A program made the position numbers and the translations under genes. A stretch of DNA of 59,335 bases. It comes from Gemmatimonadota bacterium. Lineage in GTDB: Bacteria > Gemmatimonadota > Gemmatimonadetes > Gemmatimonadales > GWC2-71-9. Of this stretch, positions 17,053 through 24,793 are shown in pieces; position 1 is the stretch's first letter, and every line of letters begins with the position of its first letter. The stretch lies in NCBI GenBank assembly GCA_025350665.1, contig JANXXJ010000063.1, positions 1 to 59,335 of the forward strand, read 5' to 3'. The notes beneath the pieces were generated by a model. That model made no database searches, was not told the DNA's origin, and worked only from the letters and a program-made list of their open reading frames with translations.

Positions 17053-18030
17053 TCAGGCATTGGTCATCACCAGCTTGCCCCGGACCTGGCGGGATGCCAT
17101 CCGCGCATAGGCTTCGGGCAGTCGATTCATCGGTAACACCTGATCAATCACCGGCTTGATCCGGCCCTGACCGTACCAGACGCCGAGCTCCGTCATCACC
17201 CGGCTCCAGTCGGCCGGCTCGCGCCGGACGTAGTCACCCCAGAACACGCCCACCACCGACGCCCCCTTGAGCAGGGCCAGGTTGAGCGGCAGCGAGGGAA
17301 TGGTCCCGCCGGCGAATCCGATCACCAAATACCGCCCCCGCCAGGCGATCGACCGGAAGGCCGGCTCGGTCAGCGCACCACCGACCGGATCGTAGACTAC
17401 GTCCGGGCCCTTGCCCCCGGTCAGCGCCTTGAGCGCGTCCCGGAGGTTCTCCTGCTGGTAGTCGATCGTGGCATCCGCACCGAGCGAGCGGCAGAAGGCG
17501 GCCTTCTCGGGGGTCGAGACCCCGGCGATCACCCGGGCGCCCATCGCCTTGGCAATCTGGATCGCCGCCGTGCCTACTCCGCCGGCGGCGCCCAGCACGA
17601 GCGCGGTTTCCCCGCTCTTGAGGGCAGCCCGGTCAACCAGGGCGTGGTGGGTCGTGCCATACGTCAGGACGAAGGCGGCCGCCTCGTCAAACGGAAGAGC
17701 TGGCGGGAGCGCCACCAGTTGCCCCGCGTCGGCAAGGGCGTGGGTCGCGAAGCCGCCGGTCCCGCCGACCGACGCGACGCGGTCGCCCACCGCGACCTGG
17801 CTGACCCCTGGCCCGACCGCCACCACCGTCCCGGCAAATTCGGACCCCGGCACGAACGGCAGGGCCGGCTTGAATTGGTATTTGCCCTCGATGATGAGCA
17901 GGTCTGGAAAGTTGAGACTGGCCGCGGCGATCGCGACCGATGCCTGCCCCGGCCCCGGTTCAGGCGTAGGGATTTCCCGCCACCGCAAGGCGTCAACGCC
18001 ACTCAGAGCGTCACAGAACCAACCGAACAT
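17053..18030 (-). CDS. NADPH:quinone oxidoreductase family protein (MDR, zinc-free)
   Basis: 325 aa from ATG 18030. The family start fits MFGWFCDALSGVDALRW; the frame is open to 18282 but that 84-residue extension overlaps the divergent promoter and has no MDR features. GroES-like part with ALPFVPGSEFAGTVVAVGPGV and VGDRVASVGG, Rossmann part with TALVLGAAGGVGTAAIQIAK and IDYQQENLRDAL, and the C-terminal GRYLVIGFAGGTIPSLPLN. Members reduce quinones or enoyl thioesters with NADPH. First gene of the beta-oxidation operon. No acyl-CoA dehydrogenase is present in the operon. Confidence 0.92.
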   Translation of the reverse strand: MFGWFCDALSGVDALRWREIPTPEPGPGQASVAIAAASLNFPDLLIIEGKYQFKPALPFVPGSEFAGTVVAVGPGVSQVAVGDRVASVGGTGGFATHALADAGQLVALPPALPFDEAAAFVLTYGTTHHALVDRAALKSGETALVLGAAGGVGTAAIQIAKAMGARVIAGVSTPEKAAFCRSLGADATIDYQQENLRDALKALTGGKGPDVVYDPVGGALTEPAFRSIAWRGRYLVIGFAGGTIPSLPLNLALLKGASVVGVFWGDYVRREPADWSRVMTELGVWYGQGRIKPVIDQVLPMNRLPEAYARMASRQVRGKLVMTNA

Positions 18031-18100
18031 TGCCACCCGATTGACGAGAGCCGCGGCAACGTACGGCGCTTTGCGCCGGAGGTCAAATAACTCGCCGGAC

Positions 18101-18129
18101 TGGACGATTTCGGGCGGTTCCACTATCCA
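18101..18129 (+). promoter_or_regulatory. Candidate promoter of the TPP-riboswitch transcript
   Basis: TGGACG (18101-18106) and TATCCA (18124-18129) with a 17-base spacer. The predicted start, about seven bases after the -10, falls a little before the riboswitch aptamer at 18146. Hexamer matches are moderate. Confidence 0.4.
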
Positions 18130-18145
18130 TTCCTGCATTGCCGCC

Positions 18146-18216
18146 AGGGGTACTCCGCGACAGCGGGGTTGAGAAAGTCTCTTGGAACCTGATCCGGTCA
18201 ACACCGGCGTAGGGAG
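18146..18216 (+). promoter_or_regulatory. TPP riboswitch (THI element)
   Basis: Highly conserved THI-element segments are present in order. AGGGGTA opens helix P2. CTCCGC...GCGGGG forms P3 and is followed by TTGAGA, equivalent to the CTGAGA T-loop that binds the pyrimidine of TPP. GTCTCTT gives the P2 return with wobble pairs. Then comes the pyrophosphate-sensor part, GAACCTGATCCGG, with CCGG pairing, ending in GGCGTAGGGA. The one deviation in the hexamer is C to T. TPP binding normally turns the downstream gene off. The aptamer ends about 80 bases before the ATG of a TonB-dependent receptor, which therefore probably imports thiamine or a precursor. Confidence 0.93.
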
Positions 18217-18224
18217 CGCGGCGT

Positions 18225-18293
18225 GTCGCAGACGCGGCCGGCTCCCCGGCCCCTGCGACCGCGACTCCGGACGCCGCTTCATGCGAGGCGTCC
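18225..18293 (+). promoter_or_regulatory. Riboswitch expression platform: two strong hairpins before the receptor ATG
   Basis: Hairpin A pairs GTCGCAG (18225-18231) with CTGCGAC (18253-18259) and contains an inner GGCCGG/CCGGCC stem. Hairpin B pairs GGACGCC (18269-18275) with GGCGTCC (18287-18293) and ends three bases before the ATG at 18297. The GCGAGG that could serve as Shine-Dalgarno lies in the loop and 3' arm of B, so B would block initiation. There is no U-tract, which favours translational control over termination. Confidence 0.6.
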
Positions 18294-18296
18294 ACC

Positions 18297-20306
18297 ATGC
18301 TCAGTCTGTCACTCATCCTGATCATTGCCGTCCAGGACACCACCCGCCTCCACCAGAAGCCGGATACGCTCGAAACCGTCGTGGTTCGGGCGACCCGGGC
18401 CGGTGCCGCCGCTCCCACCTCTCAAAGCGTCGTGGACCGGGCCACGATTGCCCGGACCTACGCCGGCCAGGACGTGCCCCTGGCACTCCAGGGCCTCACC
18501 GCCGTCACGACCTCGTCGGATGCCGGCGGCTTTTCCGGCTACAGCTACCTCCGGCTCCGCGGAATCGACCAGACCCGGCTGACCGTCTCCCTCGACGGCG
18601 TTCCTCTCAACGACCCCGAAGACCAGGTCCTCTATTTCTCCAACATTCCCGACTTCGCCAACTCGATCCAGTCGATCCGGGTCCAGCGCGGCGTGGGCTC
18701 GAGCGGATTCGGCACCGCGTCGTTCGGCGGGTCGCTCAGCTTCGAGTCGATCCCGATTGCCGCGACGCCCCGGTTCGGCGAGGCGCAGGTTACCGCCGGA
18801 TCGTTCGGAACCGGCCGAGTCAGCGTGGCGGGGGCCACGGGGCTCCAGCACGGCTGGGCTGCCTACGGCCGGGTGTCGGGCCAGACGACGGACGGATACC
18901 GGGCCCACTCCGGGAACGATTCCCGGTCCGGGTTCTTCAGCGCCGGCTGGTTTGGCGCCCGCGATGCCCTGAAGCTGACCGGCTTCGTGGGCCGATCGAA
19001 GACCCACCTGGCGTACTACGCGGCGTCGGAAGCGGATCTATCCGTGGATCGCCGCGCCAACCCGATGTCCCCCGCCGAGCGGGACGACTTCCACCAGGAA
19101 ATGGTGAGCCTCCAGTATTCACGGGCGCTCTCGACAACCGGGTTGCTCACCGCGACCGCCTACCGGAACAGCGCCGGTGGCGAGTACGACGTAGCCGTCG
19201 GCAGCGATCTCTGGAACTTCAACCTCGATCACGCCTGGTACGGCCTCCTTACTACTTTCAACTGGCTACTTGGCCCTGTCGCCTTCACTGCCGGAGCCCA
19301 TGCGAGCACCTACCACCGGGAGCACTTCCTGTTCGTCCGGCCGGATCTCCTGAGCCGGATCTACGACAACACCGGCCGGAAACAGGAGCAGAGCGGTTTC
19401 GTGAAAGCCTCCTGGACCCGCAACGCCATCGACATCCACGCCGACCTGGAACTCCGCCGCGCGGCCTTCCAGTACCAGCCCACCGCTGGGACGCCGATCG
19501 GAACGCCGGCGATCGACTGGGTCTTTCTCAACCCGAAGGTCGGGCTCACCTGGCGCGCCGCGCCGGCCACGACCGCCCACCTGTCGCTCGGGCGGACCGG
19601 GCGGGAGCCGACCCGGAGCGACCTGTTCGCCGGCGCCGATGATCTGGACCAGACCCTGGCGGCCGAACTGCTCCCGCTCGGCCAGGTTCGGCCGGAATCG
19701 GTGACCGACCTCGAAGCCGGCATGCGCTGGACCGGCCGCCGGATCGAATTCGGGGCCAACCTGTTCGCGATGCGGTTCCACAATGAGATCGCCCCGATTG
19801 GCACGTTGTCGATCACCGGGAGCCCGCTCCGGAAGAATCTGCCCCGGAGCCAACGCACGGGCCTGGAACTCGAAGCCGGCTGGCACCCGACACCGCACCT
19901 GGCGTTCACCGGCAACGCCATGCTGATGCGGGCCAGGATTGCCGAATACACGGACGACGCGGCCGGGGTGACCTACCGGAACGTGCAGCCCCTGCTCTCC
20001 CCAGCCGTAATCGCGGCCCTGCAGGGCGAATGGCGTCCTGCCGCCCGGACCGCGCTGGTCCTGTCGGCTCGGCACATCGGCCAATCGCAACTGGCCAACG
20101 ACGGGAGTGCCACCATGGTCCTGCCGCGGGCCACACTGGTGGACGCCGGCGTCAGCATCGGCTGGTCGAAGTTCGAACTTCGGACCCAGGTCCAGAACCT
20201 CCTCAATGCCAACGCCTGGATGAGCGGGTATACCGACGGGAGCACCCGGTACCTCTTCCCGGTGGCAACCCGCACGCTACTCATGACCGTCTCGATCCGC
20301 CCTTGA
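18297..20306 (+). CDS. TonB-dependent outer-membrane receptor, TPP-riboswitch controlled (thiamine or precursor uptake)
   Basis: 669 aa. Short N-terminal signal-like stretch LSLSLILIIAVQ, TonB-box-like LETVVVRATR, plug domain with SYLRLRGIDQTRLTVSLDGVP, NDPEDQVLYFSNIPDF and RVQRGVGSSGFGTASFGGS, then a barrel of alternating beta strands ending in aromatic-poor IRP after TRTLLMTVS. It lacks a CarboxypepD_reg domain, unlike SusC. TonB-dependent receptors bring scarce nutrients across the outer membrane. The riboswitch immediately upstream makes thiamine, its phosphates or a pyrimidine/thiazole precursor the best substrate guess. A small hairpin (TGAGGC/GCCTCA, 20304-20322) follows the gene. Confidence 0.92.
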   Translation: MLSLSLILIIAVQDTTRLHQKPDTLETVVVRATRAGAAAPTSQSVVDRATIARTYAGQDVPLALQGLTAVTTSSDAGGFSGYSYLRLRGIDQTRLTVSLDGVPLNDPEDQVLYFSNIPDFANSIQSIRVQRGVGSSGFGTASFGGSLSFESIPIAATPRFGEAQVTAGSFGTGRVSVAGATGLQHGWAAYGRVSGQTTDGYRAHSGNDSRSGFFSAGWFGARDALKLTGFVGRSKTHLAYYAASEADLSVDRRANPMSPAERDDFHQEMVSLQYSRALSTTGLLTATAYRNSAGGEYDVAVGSDLWNFNLDHAWYGLLTTFNWLLGPVAFTAGAHASTYHREHFLFVRPDLLSRIYDNTGRKQEQSGFVKASWTRNAIDIHADLELRRAAFQYQPTAGTPIGTPAIDWVFLNPKVGLTWRAAPATTAHLSLGRTGREPTRSDLFAGADDLDQTLAAELLPLGQVRPESVTDLEAGMRWTGRRIEFGANLFAMRFHNEIAPIGTLSITGSPLRKNLPRSQRTGLELEAGWHPTPHLAFTGNAMLMRARIAEYTDDAAGVTYRNVQPLLSPAVIAALQGEWRPAARTALVLSARHIGQSQLANDGSATMVLPRATLVDAGVSIGWSKFELRTQVQNLLNANAWMSGYTDGSTRYLFPVATRTLLMTVSIRP

Positions 20307-20349: not shown

Positions 20350-20400
20350 TGAGTGGACCATTCGCCGTACTGTGGTTTCCTCTTCTTTCGGGAGTCCTTC

Positions 20401-23376
20401 ATGCCATGGCGTTTGTCGGGGTTGCTGCTCGCCGGCTTCCTGGCCGCATCGCCCCAAACCGCGGCCGCCCAACAGCGCGACCTGAGCGGTTCCATCACCC
20501 GCGCCGATGACGGGCGCCCCATCGCCGACGCGACGATCACGGTCGTTGGCGGCGCGGCAACCACCCGTTCTGGTGCCAACGGCCGATTTTCGCTCGGTAT
20601 TCCCCGGGGCGGCTCCATCCAGATCCTGGTCCGGGCCATCGGCTTCGTTCGCCAGCAGGCGACGGTCGAACCAACCCAGTCCACCCTCGATCTCCAGCTC
20701 ACGGCGGACGTGTTCAAGCTCGAAGACGTGGTGGTGACCGGGCAGCAGACCGGGGTCTCCCGCCGGAACGCCGCGACCTCGAGTTCGGTCGTCGATGGCA
20801 GCGCGGTATCCCGGGTCGCGACACCGGCGCTCGACAAGGCGCTCGCCGGACGGGTGGCCGGCGCCAACATCCAGAGCAACTCCGGCGCACCAGGCAGCGG
20901 GGCCCAGATCATCATCCGCGGCACCAACACCATCAACGCCGCGGCCGACCCGTTGATCGTCGTGGACGGCGTGATCTTCAGTAACGCGACGGTCCCGACC
21001 GGTCTCTACACCGCGACCGGCAGCAGTGGCAATCCGATCAGCGGGGCTGCCCAGGACGACGGCGCCAATCGTCTCGCCGACTTGAATCCGAACGACATCG
21101 AGCGGATCGAAGTCCTCAAGTCCGCCGCGGCGTCGTCGATCTACGGGTCGAAGGCCGCCAACGGCGTGCTGGTGATCACGACCCGTCGCGGCGCCGCGGG
21201 AAAGACCCGGGCCGAATTGACCCAGCGAGTCGGCTTCTCCTCGTTGCTCCGCGGCTTCAAGCCCCGGGCCTTCACGGTCGCCGAAGCCAAAGATGTCTTC
21301 TCCACCGATGACGCCACCCTGGCGCCGTTTCTCGTCAATGGCCAGCTCCCGGTCTACGACCACCTGAAGGAAGTCGCCGGCAACAAGCCGATGGCGTACG
21401 AAACGGTCTTCTCGCTGAGCGGCGGATCGGAAACCACCAGGTTCTACACTTCACTCGAGGTGAAGAGCGAGGGCGGGATCATCGGCCACACCGGATCCCA
21501 GCGCCAGGCGATCCGGATCAATCTCGACCAGAAGCTCACCAACAACCTCAAGCTCAAGCTGTCGAACGGCTTCGCCCGGAGCCAGGCCGACCGCGGATTC
21601 ACCAACAATGACAACCTCGGCGCGAGCATTACCTATGCGCTGGCCTACATCCCGAGCTTCATTCCGCTCACCCAGAACCCGGACGGCTCCTGGCCGGCCC
21701 CCGCATTCACCTACGCCGGGGCCAACCCTCTCCAGACCGCGGCGCTCGCCACCAATGACGAGCAGGTGCTCCGCAACACGTCGGCGGCCACTCTGGACTG
21801 GTTCGCTCACCAGGGGGAGCGGAGTTCCCTCCAGCTGATCGCCGCGGGCGGCGCCGACTTCTTTTCGCAGAATGCCCAGATTTTCTCACCGCCCGAACTG
21901 TTCTTCGAGGCGGCCAAGTCAAATCCCGGCACCGCGACGCGCGCCAACGCCCAAAGCCGCTATCTCAACTGGAACCTGAACGCCATCCACATCTACTCGC
22001 CGGCCTCCGCCGCCTGGCGCGCCAGTACCTCGTTCGGCGCCCAGTACGAGGACCGGCTGCTCGACCGGAACAGCGCCACCGCGCGCGGCCTCCTGCCGGG
22101 CCAGTCCAACATCGACAAGGGCGCCGTCTTCGGCGAACAGATCGAGATCAACACGAAAGAACGGACCTTCGCGCTCTACGGCCAGGAGGAATTCCTGGCG
22201 TTCCGGGAGAAACTCCTCATCACCGGCGGTATCCGGGCCGAACGGAGCAGCGTGTTCGGCAACACCGACCACTACTACCTCTTCCCGAAGTTCGCCGCGT
22301 CCTACCGGTTCCCGGAACTGCTGGGCCAGGGCGCCGATCTCAAGCTGCGGGCCGCCTACGGCCACATCGGCAATCAGCCGCTCTTCGGCCAGAAGTACAC
22401 TGTCCTGAGCGGACGAAACACGATCAGCGGCAACGCCACCACCGTGGTCGGCGGCTCCGCCGGATCGCCCGACATCCGGCCGGAACGGACCAAGGAAATC
22501 GAAGTCGGTCTCGACGGCAGCCTGCTCCACAATCGCGCCAGCTTCGAGATCACCGCCTTCCGCCGGAACACCTACGATTTGCTGCTGTCCCGAACCCCGG
22601 CACCGTCGTCCGGCTACACCACCCAGTTCCTGAACGGCGGCCAGCTCCGCAACTGGGGCCTCGAGGTCGCGCTCGGCGTGACGCCGGTCCAGAGCCGGAA
22701 CTTCCGCTGGGAGAGCCGGAACACTTTCCAGCTGGTCCGGAACAAGGTGGTCGACCTGCCGATCCCCGACTTCCGGCCCTTCGGCGCCGGATTCGGCCTC
22801 GCCTACGGTGAGTTCTTCATTCAGAAGGGCCGGCCGATCAACCAGATCATCGGCACCACCGGTTTCGACGCCAACGGGGATCCGATCGTGAGCTTCCTCG
22901 GCACCTCGACCCCGGACTTCAAGATCGGATTCAGCAACGACGTGAGCTGGAGGGCACTCACGATCGGCATGCTGTGGGACTGGCAGAAGGGCGGTGTCGC
23001 CCAGAACCAGACCCTGTCGCTGTATGACTGCAACCAGCTCTCCGAGGACAGTGGCCGCCCGTCCGGGCAGGCCCGGGCCCAGGCGTGCCTCAACGACGGC
23101 ATCGCCACGCCGTTCGTCGAGTCGACGACCTACCTCCGCCTCCGCGAGGTCAGCATCGAGTACGAAGTGCCGCGCCGCATTGCCCAGAAGCTGTTCCGCG
23201 GGGCTGACGCGGCTCGGCTCTCACTCTCGGGCCGGAACCTGCTGCTGTTCACCAAGTACACCGGCTACGACCCCGAGTCGAGCAACTTCGGCCAGCAGGC
23301 CGTGTCTCGAAACGTGGACTTGGGCCCGTATCCTCCGTCCCGGAGCTTCTACTTCTCGGTCTCGGTGGGGTTCTAA
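20401..23376 (+). CDS. SusC/RagA-type TonB-linked outer-membrane protein
   Basis: 991 aa. Signal peptide MPWRLSGLLLAGFLAASPQT ending AAAQQ, CarboxypepD_reg domain (about 28-105, GSITRADDGRPIADATITVVGG), TonB box near EDVVVTGQQTGV, plug with APGSGAQIIIRGTNTINAAADPLIVVDGV and LNPNDIERIEVLKSAAASSIYGSKAANGVLVITTR, then the 22-strand barrel ending FYFSVSVGF. SusC forms the transporter beneath a SusD lid and uses TonB energy. ATG 20401 is chosen from the signal peptide; GGGAG lies ten bases upstream. SusD follows after one base. Same strand as the riboswitch receptor, so it may belong to the same uptake locus. Substrate not determinable from sequence. Confidence 0.95.
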   Translation: MPWRLSGLLLAGFLAASPQTAAAQQRDLSGSITRADDGRPIADATITVVGGAATTRSGANGRFSLGIPRGGSIQILVRAIGFVRQQATVEPTQSTLDLQLTADVFKLEDVVVTGQQTGVSRRNAATSSSVVDGSAVSRVATPALDKALAGRVAGANIQSNSGAPGSGAQIIIRGTNTINAAADPLIVVDGVIFSNATVPTGLYTATGSSGNPISGAAQDDGANRLADLNPNDIERIEVLKSAAASSIYGSKAANGVLVITTRRGAAGKTRAELTQRVGFSSLLRGFKPRAFTVAEAKDVFSTDDATLAPFLVNGQLPVYDHLKEVAGNKPMAYETVFSLSGGSETTRFYTSLEVKSEGGIIGHTGSQRQAIRINLDQKLTNNLKLKLSNGFARSQADRGFTNNDNLGASITYALAYIPSFIPLTQNPDGSWPAPAFTYAGANPLQTAALATNDEQVLRNTSAATLDWFAHQGERSSLQLIAAGGADFFSQNAQIFSPPELFFEAAKSNPGTATRANAQSRYLNWNLNAIHIYSPASAAWRASTSFGAQYEDRLLDRNSATARGLLPGQSNIDKGAVFGEQIEINTKERTFALYGQEEFLAFREKLLITGGIRAERSSVFGNTDHYYLFPKFAASYRFPELLGQGADLKLRAAYGHIGNQPLFGQKYTVLSGRNTISGNATTVVGGSAGSPDIRPERTKEIEVGLDGSLLHNRASFEITAFRRNTYDLLLSRTPAPSSGYTTQFLNGGQLRNWGLEVALGVTPVQSRNFRWESRNTFQLVRNKVVDLPIPDFRPFGAGFGLAYGEFFIQKGRPINQIIGTTGFDANGDPIVSFLGTSTPDFKIGFSNDVSWRALTIGMLWDWQKGGVAQNQTLSLYDCNQLSEDSGRPSGQARAQACLNDGIATPFVESTTYLRLREVSIEYEVPRRIAQKLFRGADAARLSLSGRNLLLFTKYTGYDPESSNFGQQAVSRNVDLGPYPPSRSFYFSVSVGF

Positions 23377-23377
23377 T

Positions 23378-24793
23378 ATGCGACGACTCTCGATGCACAC
23401 CGCCACGACGCTGCTCGCCGGACTCACCCTCGGCTGCGGCAGCTTCGATATTCTGAATTCGAACGACCCGAGCGAGGCCGACCTCCTCACCAACCCGACG
23501 CCCTCGAAGATCAGCGTCGCCGGCACCGGTCTCTTCGTCGGCGCCCGCGCCGGAGTAACCGGAGAGATCTGGATTCTTGGCTCGTATGGGCGTGAAGGCG
23601 TCCGTCTCCTCGGCAACAACCAGCCGGACTATCAGGAGCCGTTCTTCGGCCCGATCCAGCAACAGCGGGCCGTGGCCTGGGGCGCCGAATTCACCAACAT
23701 CCGGAGTGCCAACATCTTCCTCGCGGCCCTCGCCAAGACCACCCAGCTCTCGGCCGCGCAGAAGTCAGCCGGAATCGGGCTGGCCCAAACGCTCAAGGCG
23801 CTGGCGGTGTTCAAGGTGATCGCGGTCCGCGGGAAACTCGGTGCTCCGGTGGACGTCGGCCGGGCGCTGTCGGAGGACCCGGCGCCGTTCCTGACGGAAG
23901 ATGGGGTCTACAACTACATCCGGGCCCTCCTCGACAGCGCCAAGACCAATCTCGGCGCCGGCTCGGCGGCGAACTTCCCGCTCGTGCTGCCCGGTGGATT
24001 TTCGGATTTTGCCACGCCGACCGAGTTCCTGAAATTCACCCGGGGCCTGGCCGCCAAGGCCGAAGTGTTCCATGGATCGGCGGGCTGCGGAATCACGTGC
24101 TACCAGCGGGCGCTGACCGAGTTGAGCGCGAGCTATCTGACGTTCGACCCTGGTGCGTTGGCGTTCGGGCCGTATTACGACTTCTCCTCCGGCCCAGGCG
24201 ACTCACCCAACAACCTTTCCGATCCGCTGAACGGCGCCGATTTCTTTGCCCTCCGGGTGAACCAGACCGACGCTCAGCTCCAGCCCAGCGGCGACATGGA
24301 CCAGCGGGTGCTCGACAAGGTCGCGGATGCCACCCGCGATCCGCCGCAGACAGTGGGCGGCTTCCCGATCACCGGCGAGCTCAAGTTCACCAACTATCTC
24401 GCCGGCGGCCGGCCGAACACCGGGGCGGGAATTCCGATCCTCAAGAACGAGGAACTGATCCTGCTTGGCGCTGAGGCCAACCTCGGAATCGGCAACAAGG
24501 CGGCGGCGATCACGTACCTGGACTTCGTCCGGCAGAATGCTGGCGGTCTGGCGCCAACCACACTTACCGCGGCCAGTTCCACCGCCGCGCTGCTCGACGA
24601 GTTGCTCTACAACCGGCGCTACTCGCTCCTCTGGGAGCAGGGCGCGCGGTGGATCGATGCCCGGCGCTACAACCGGCTCTCTACCATCCCGGTGATCGTG
24701 CCGGATGGCGCTGTGCCGGCCGAGGTCCCGATTCCCGAGGCCGAATGCCAGGCTCGGAATCTCACGGCTCCGTGCCGCCCGGCGGGCAACTAA
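23378..24793 (+). CDS. RagB/SusD-family outer-membrane nutrient-binding lipoprotein
   Basis: 471 aa. The ATG at 23378 begins one base after the SusC stop. Signal peptide with lipobox LTLGC (modified Cys about residue 21), then DILNSNDPSEADLLTNPT, typical of SusD starts. The middle carries helical TPR-like parts (SAGIGLAQTLKALAVFKVIAVRG). The C-terminal half has the family motifs ILKNEELILLGAEANLGIG and LLYNRRYSLLWEQGARWIDARRY. It is the substrate-binding lid for the SusC partner. Somewhat short for SusD proteins (often 500 or more). The gene unit ends at the strong hairpin at 24811. Confidence 0.93.
   Translation: MRRLSMHTATTLLAGLTLGCGSFDILNSNDPSEADLLTNPTPSKISVAGTGLFVGARAGVTGEIWILGSYGREGVRLLGNNQPDYQEPFFGPIQQQRAVAWGAEFTNIRSANIFLAALAKTTQLSAAQKSAGIGLAQTLKALAVFKVIAVRGKLGAPVDVGRALSEDPAPFLTEDGVYNYIRALLDSAKTNLGAGSAANFPLVLPGGFSDFATPTEFLKFTRGLAAKAEVFHGSAGCGITCYQRALTELSASYLTFDPGALAFGPYYDFSSGPGDSPNNLSDPLNGADFFALRVNQTDAQLQPSGDMDQRVLDKVADATRDPPQTVGGFPITGELKFTNYLAGGRPNTGAGIPILKNEELILLGAEANLGIGNKAAAITYLDFVRQNAGGLAPTTLTAASSTAALLDELLYNRRYSLLWEQGARWIDARRYNRLSTIPVIVPDGAVPAEVPIPEAECQARNLTAPCRPAGN

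Follow-up and report, generated by a model that had tools for sequence, protein, structure and literature searches.

A TPP riboswitch in front of a probable thiamine TonB-dependent receptor in Gemmatimonadales

The riboswitch and receptor locus

The window, that is, the whole stretch of DNA analysed (59,335 nucleotides of contig JANXXJ010000063.1, from a member of the Gemmatimonadales), contains a riboswitch aptamer followed by a TonB-dependent receptor gene, with a dehydrogenase gene running in the opposite direction. The features concerned are the following:

17053..18030, minus strand: zinc-type dehydrogenase (Pfam ADH_N / ADH_zinc_N), divergent neighbour outside the switch
18136..18233, plus strand: TPP riboswitch aptamer (RF00059; cmscan, 59.4 bits; single copy in the genome)
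18139..18144, plus strand: 5' strand of P1, UGCCGC (from the sequence; partner 18218-18223)
18218..18223, plus strand: 3' strand of P1, GCGGCG (from the sequence; downstream competitor strands are also complementary to it)
18297..20306, plus strand: TonB-dependent receptor of 669 aa, probable thiamine transporter (PF07715 and PF00593 over their cut-offs; TPP-linked in 119/121 genomes)

The aptamer was the sole match in the window when all of Rfam 15 was searched with cmscan (E = 3.8e-9), covering the full-length model (1-105) and scoring above the gathering score of 54.3 bits. The core motifs TTGAGA, GAACCTGATCCGG and GGCGTAGGGA, on which the sequence-only reading had founded its proposal of a TPP aptamer, are all found. 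That reading had assigned the region 18101-18300 to the riboswitch, which does lie there, but the aptamer starts at 18136; positions 18031-18135 are intergenic space up to the divergent gene, whose likely start is 18030. The P1 closing helix has six base pairs (UGCCGC/GCGGCG) by reading of the sequence and one mismatch in Rfam's register. The copy in the window is the one copy of RF00059 in the whole source genome, a draft of 366 contigs and 4.59 Mb. As a separate observation, a second TPP riboswitch match of genome G023 (L032, C5:127745-127870, 67.9 bits) is located upstream of a zinc-type dehydrogenase, an unexpected target.

The receptor gene begins 63 nt downstream of the aptamer, and its product matches both Plug (8.9e-13) and barrel (1.7e-24) domains over the Pfam cut-offs, in agreement with the target originally named. 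General TonB-siderophore models match it weakly, below their cut-offs, and no relative was found by sequence in the PDB at E 0.001. About 90 bp past the receptor stop, a SusC-like receptor and a SusD-like protein are encoded on the same strand (window 20398-24793).

Receptor, ThiC and PnuC across the order

The distribution of the receptor was surveyed in 288 Gemmatimonadales genomes. The receptor was found in 123 and ThiC in 136, the two occurring together in 4 and neither being present in 33 (Fisher 3.5e-44, a statistic which, like the counts themselves, ignores relatedness). The receptor mostly replaces ThiC across the order, and does so almost perfectly. Moreover, a TPP riboswitch lies directly upstream of the receptor in 119 of the 121 genomes in which the upstream sequence was readable (113 by pattern and 6 more by cmscan), and in these the receptor is a member of the TPP regulon. 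Neither pattern nor cmscan gave a riboswitch before the receptor in G222 and G223; in both (L130, L131), PnuC is found on the same strand some 0.9 kb upstream of the receptor orthologue. In the window's genus, five genomes carry the receptor and lack ThiC; in G002, also of this genus, the riboswitch precedes ThiC and the receptor is missing. Both states also exist inside several genera (g1, g40, g41 and g62), which argues for repeated exchange between receptor and ThiC. A contig scan for relatives returned five, all labelled as Gemmatimonadota, Gemmatimonadetes or Gemmatimonadaceae MAGs.

In the source genome, a draft about 94% complete, neither ThiC nor ThiG was found. As regards ThiE, a sub-threshold match was rejected, as it sits in an IMP-dehydrogenase-like reading frame; the ThiG matches of most receptor genomes (E 1e-5 to 1e-3) were likewise discarded, being in unrelated frames, compared with values of 1e-29 to 1e-109 for true ThiG. 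Thiamine pyrophosphokinase (TPK, PF04263) was detected in 0 of 61 genomes. Genome G043, in which the receptor and a homologue of ThiE are present and ThiC is not, contains a second TPP riboswitch (L018, C1:4358699-4358796), in this case before hydroxyethylthiazole kinase (ThiM).

Furthermore, the receptor is accompanied by a transporter of the PnuC family, present in 117 of the 123 receptor genomes versus 27 of the 165 others. In 41 genomes the transporter and receptor genes are no more than 1 kb apart, and in four genomes the transporter is directly downstream on the same strand, with gaps of 63-104 nt. In G233, PnuC stands behind a TPP riboswitch of its own, located 31 nt upstream. In the source genome PnuC is unlinked to the receptor and its gene is overlapped by that of a NadR-kinase-like protein, a type of protein which adjoins PnuC in 15 of the 15 loci readable on both sides:

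L202:3546-4103, contig C145 of the source genome: PnuC-family transporter
L202:4079-4621, contig C145 of the source genome: NadR-kinase-like AAA_28 gene, overlapping PnuC

This pair may represent a thiamine transporter and an unrecognised thiamine kinase, the NadR-like protein being a candidate for the kinase in genomes that gave no match to the standard thiamine pyrophosphokinase family. The most serious alternative, although an unlikely one, is that both proteins carry out ordinary nicotinamide riboside salvage and co-occur with the receptor through lineage only. Their family names (TIGR01528, TIGR01526) point in that direction, as do the NCBIfam assignment of the transporter to PnuC (nicotinamide riboside), above cut-off, the nearest solved structures of the kinase, which are all NadR, and the 27 genomes with PnuC and no receptor. 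Nevertheless, PnuC is split unevenly between receptor genomes and the rest, immediately follows the receptor gene in four genomes and has a TPP riboswitch to itself in G233, observations which argue against this alternative. A regulatory RNA is tied here to a clean metabolic swap, in which genomes hold either thiamine pyrimidine synthesis (ThiC) or the receptor together with PnuC and a NadR-like kinase, and almost never both.

Leader platforms in the window and in related genomes

Between the aptamer and the start codon, the window leader offers several pairing elements, all on the plus strand:

18225..18259, plus strand: hairpin 1, GUCGCAG/CUGCGAC with GGCCGG/CCGGCC (from folds)
18259..18268, plus strand: anti-P1 strand CCGCGACUCC (free-state MFE; the CACUCC here is conserved in relatives)
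18271..18277, plus strand: alternative antisequestor ACGCCGC (from the sequence)
18269..18293, plus strand: Shine-Dalgarno (SD) sequestor hairpin, GGACGCC/GGCGUCC (-14.0 kcal/mol; conserved among relatives)
18285..18288, plus strand: SD-like GAGG (from the sequence; 8 nt upstream of the ATG)

The two stems initially read after the aptamer both exist. The arms of the second, at 18269-18275 and 18287-18293, end 3 nt upstream of the ATG at 18297 as had been proposed, but its cover of the SD-like sequence is partial: the GG of GAGG is paired in the stem and the GA is in a loop or bulge, leaving the motif half-sequestered. Two strands could compete for the 3' side of P1. The anti-P1 strand is complementary, with one A bulged, to GGAGCGCGG (18213-18221), a pairing present in the free-state MFE. 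ACGCCGC, in turn, is a perfect 7-nt complement of 18218-18224 and shares bases with the sequestor's 5' arm, and its pairing with the P1 3' strand is not favoured by equilibrium folding.

Folding of the window leader by itself has limited value. The whole-leader folding energy is ordinary for its composition (z = -0.96) and was rejected as uninformative, so that the evidence for the hairpins is comparative. The SD sequestor is formed at equilibrium both with and without P1, for which reason the equilibrium fold was rejected as proof of switching. Opening of the SD arm requires 7-8 kcal/mol freely and 9-12 kcal/mol with P1 forced; the P1-to-SD coupling amounts to +2.0 kcal/mol and was matched by 17 of 60 shuffles, and computed switching for this leader alone is not above chance. 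Repression of translation by TPP, as first suggested, is still the likely direction.

The comparative evidence comes from 34 receptor leaders of related type, belonging to genera g1, g33, g43, g45 and g72, a set which is biased towards the hairpin, as ten leaders whose start was doubtful or which lacked a hairpin of this kind were excluded. A hairpin right upstream of the ATG recurs in nearly all 34, with CACUCCGGA or a close variant on its 5' side and, in many, GAGG or GGAG on its 3' side. The GGACGCC/GGCGUCC stem is common to G000, G001 and G004, while other inner stems are found elsewhere (CCUU/GAGG in g33, UCGC/GCGA in g45 and a changed stem in G005). The SD hairpin is kept across at least four genera with altered stems that retain their complementarity, as the expectation of a stem conserved among relatives implied. 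When arms were exchanged between genera, the 5' arms of g1 reached -16.5 kcal/mol with their own 3' arms versus -11.4 kcal/mol with those of other genera, and the true assignment ranked second among 120 permutations, because in g45 and g72 the 5' arms find nearly as good partners among the 3' arms of other genera. A column-wise count of covariation was dropped, since the stem register shifts between genera in the alignment.

The CACUCC conserved in these leaders can pair with the GGAGUG on the 3' side of the aptamer, which constitutes an anti-P1 arrangement. Moreover, when P1 is forced in the 34 leaders, the SD arm becomes more costly to open, with a mean coupling of +1.9 versus +0.3 kcal/mol in linker shuffles (Wilcoxon p 4e-5, the leaders not being independent).

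The platform could instead act on transcription, TPP binding leading to termination at hairpin 1 or to coupled Rho-dependent termination, with the SD hairpin as a by-product. Relatives lend this some weight: a terminator-like hairpin occupies the place corresponding to hairpin 1 in G003, of the window's own genus, and in many g33, g43 and g45 leaders, most of them with a U-rich tail, and the E. coli thiC riboswitch couples the transcription and translation levels (PMC5234074). In the window leader, however, no U-tract follows hairpin 1 or hairpin 2, an intrinsic terminator was rejected as no plus strand terminator-like site exists, and within the window's genus conservation up to the start codon concerns the SD hairpin and not hairpin 1. 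A transcriptional switch is therefore improbable here, and translational control by the SD hairpin is preferred.

Examples of aptamer-receptor pairs whose leader has a terminator-like hairpin followed by a U-rich tail are L051 (G003), L027 (G037) and L043 (G053); some leaders of these genomes also have the SD hairpin, so that a dual transcriptional and translational platform is possible in them. A further arrangement is seen in about fifty leaders of family f2, whose start codon lies 5-10 nt past the AGGGA of the aptamer and in which the aptamer itself may hold the SD. One aptamer-receptor pair is served by three platforms among related lineages: SD sequestration, a terminator and a start codon placed immediately after the aptamer.

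The probable thiamine uptake module and known systems

These results are best interpreted as a module for thiamine uptake, subject to feedback by TPP, in bacteria auxotrophic for thiamine. Taken as a whole, the explanation that a TPP riboswitch represses a TonB receptor for thiamine (or thiamine phosphate), as part of the uptake module of an auxotroph, is considered probable. At high intracellular TPP, the riboswitch would repress the outer-membrane transporter: with TPP bound, P1 would be locked and the GGACGCC/GGCGUCC hairpin would mask the ribosome-binding site. With TPP absent, the 3' strand of the aptamer would pair with CCGCGACUCC and/or, during transcription, with ACGCCGC, opening P1 and making the ribosome-binding site more accessible. 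The organism, with no detectable thiC, thiG or thiE, would depend on uptake, and the receptor would be partnered by the unlinked PnuC/PnuT-type inner-membrane transporter and the NadR-kinase-like protein, which probably phosphorylates and traps the vitamin. Thiamine would thus cross both membranes before being phosphorylated, TPP exerting feedback on the outer-membrane step. As TPK is found in none of the 61 genomes, the enzyme for the step to TPP is left unassigned. In a largely uncultured phylum, the receptor would provide a sequence marker of B1 auxotrophy, and such auxotrophy suggests a thiamine supplement for media.

It is quite improbable that the receptor is only co-regulated by TPP and transports another substrate, whether a siderophore, cobalamin or a thiamine precursor (for instance HMP). 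The sub-cut-off matches to siderophore models would fit such a substrate, and the need for a precursor also affects a TPP switch; yet the near exclusion with ThiC and the co-occurrence of PnuC speak for thiamine, and salvage of HMP needs the thiazole branch and ThiE, missing in the source genome and most relatives with the receptor. That the aptamer is degraded or non-functional, as its margin of just 5 bits over the gathering score might suggest, is hardly credible given its intact core, the aptamers of G001 and G004, which are 89-91% identical and likewise stand before this gene, and the linkage of riboswitch and receptor through the order.

The TPP riboswitch is genuine, the receptor behind it is probably one for thiamine, and a switch of this kind is already known. 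In Bacteroides thetaiotaomicron, a TPP riboswitch precedes OMthi (BT2390), accompanied by pnuT-tnr3, and the receptor supports growth at low thiamine (PMC5613172). The module described here shares with OMthi the riboswitch before a TonB-dependent receptor and the partnership with PnuT and a thiamine-phosphorylating enzyme, a role which is predicted for the kinase. Unlike Bacteroides, which also has a biosynthetic operon, Gemmatimonadales mostly have the receptor in the place of ThiC, and the enzyme partner is NadR-like instead of tnr3. Such switches, cited from Bacteroidetes in the sequence-only reading, also occur outside that group, Proteobacteria included: a TonB-dependent receptor belongs to a TPP-regulated thiamine operon in Variovorax (PMC10409787), and omr genes follow THI-elements in metagenomes (PMC2211319, citing Rodionov 2002), so that the window receptor shares with both its place in a TPP regulon outside Bacteroidetes. 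The Variovorax receptor, however, is in the biosynthetic operon of a prototroph, whereas that of the window is preceded by a separate switch and its genome lacks thiC.

The platform, formerly described as different-looking, resembles the published design of E. coli thiC, a translational OFF switch whose anti-P1 stem is not the predominant form in full-length RNA (PMC5234074). Both have the aptamer, a downstream strand that competes for the 3' side of P1 and an RBS-sequestering stem, and in both the equilibrium of the full-length RNA leans to the sequestor. The target gene differs, the platform sequence is unrelated, and the design, demonstrated in E. coli, is deduced here from sequence and folding. 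The riboswitches before thiC of Gemmatimonadales, including G002, belong to the same aptamer family and order, the downstream gene in their case being a synthesis enzyme.

Thiamine synthesis is known to be less prevalent in Gemmatimonadales (PMC10469786). Within the literature searched, lying mostly outside subscription journals, neither a TPP riboswitch nor a TPP-controlled TonB receptor was described for Gemmatimonadota, nor was a NadR-like thiamine kinase. What is new is the order-wide replacement of ThiC by the receptor-PnuT-kinase module, together with the candidate kinase. A broader proposal can be advanced tentatively: auxotrophic Gemmatimonadales might take up thiamine with three parts, the TPP-controlled receptor, PnuT and the free-standing NadR-kinase-like AAA_28 protein, of which the last would be an unrecognised thiamine kinase or pyrophosphokinase in place of TPK. 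The module would have replaced thiC repeatedly in the order, and the window's genus would probably have acquired it from a different family.

Finally, the relationships of receptor and aptamer bear on this last point. No receptor was found in the other f1 genera searched, and in the receptor tree the window's genus (family f1) adjoins g33 of family f2, nested among f2 receptors. The window aptamer is 82-84% identical to the receptor aptamers of g33 and 81-84% identical to receptor-linked aptamers of another family, compared with 78% for the ThiC aptamer of G002, from its own genus. Riboswitch and receptor were likely transferred together into the window's genus.
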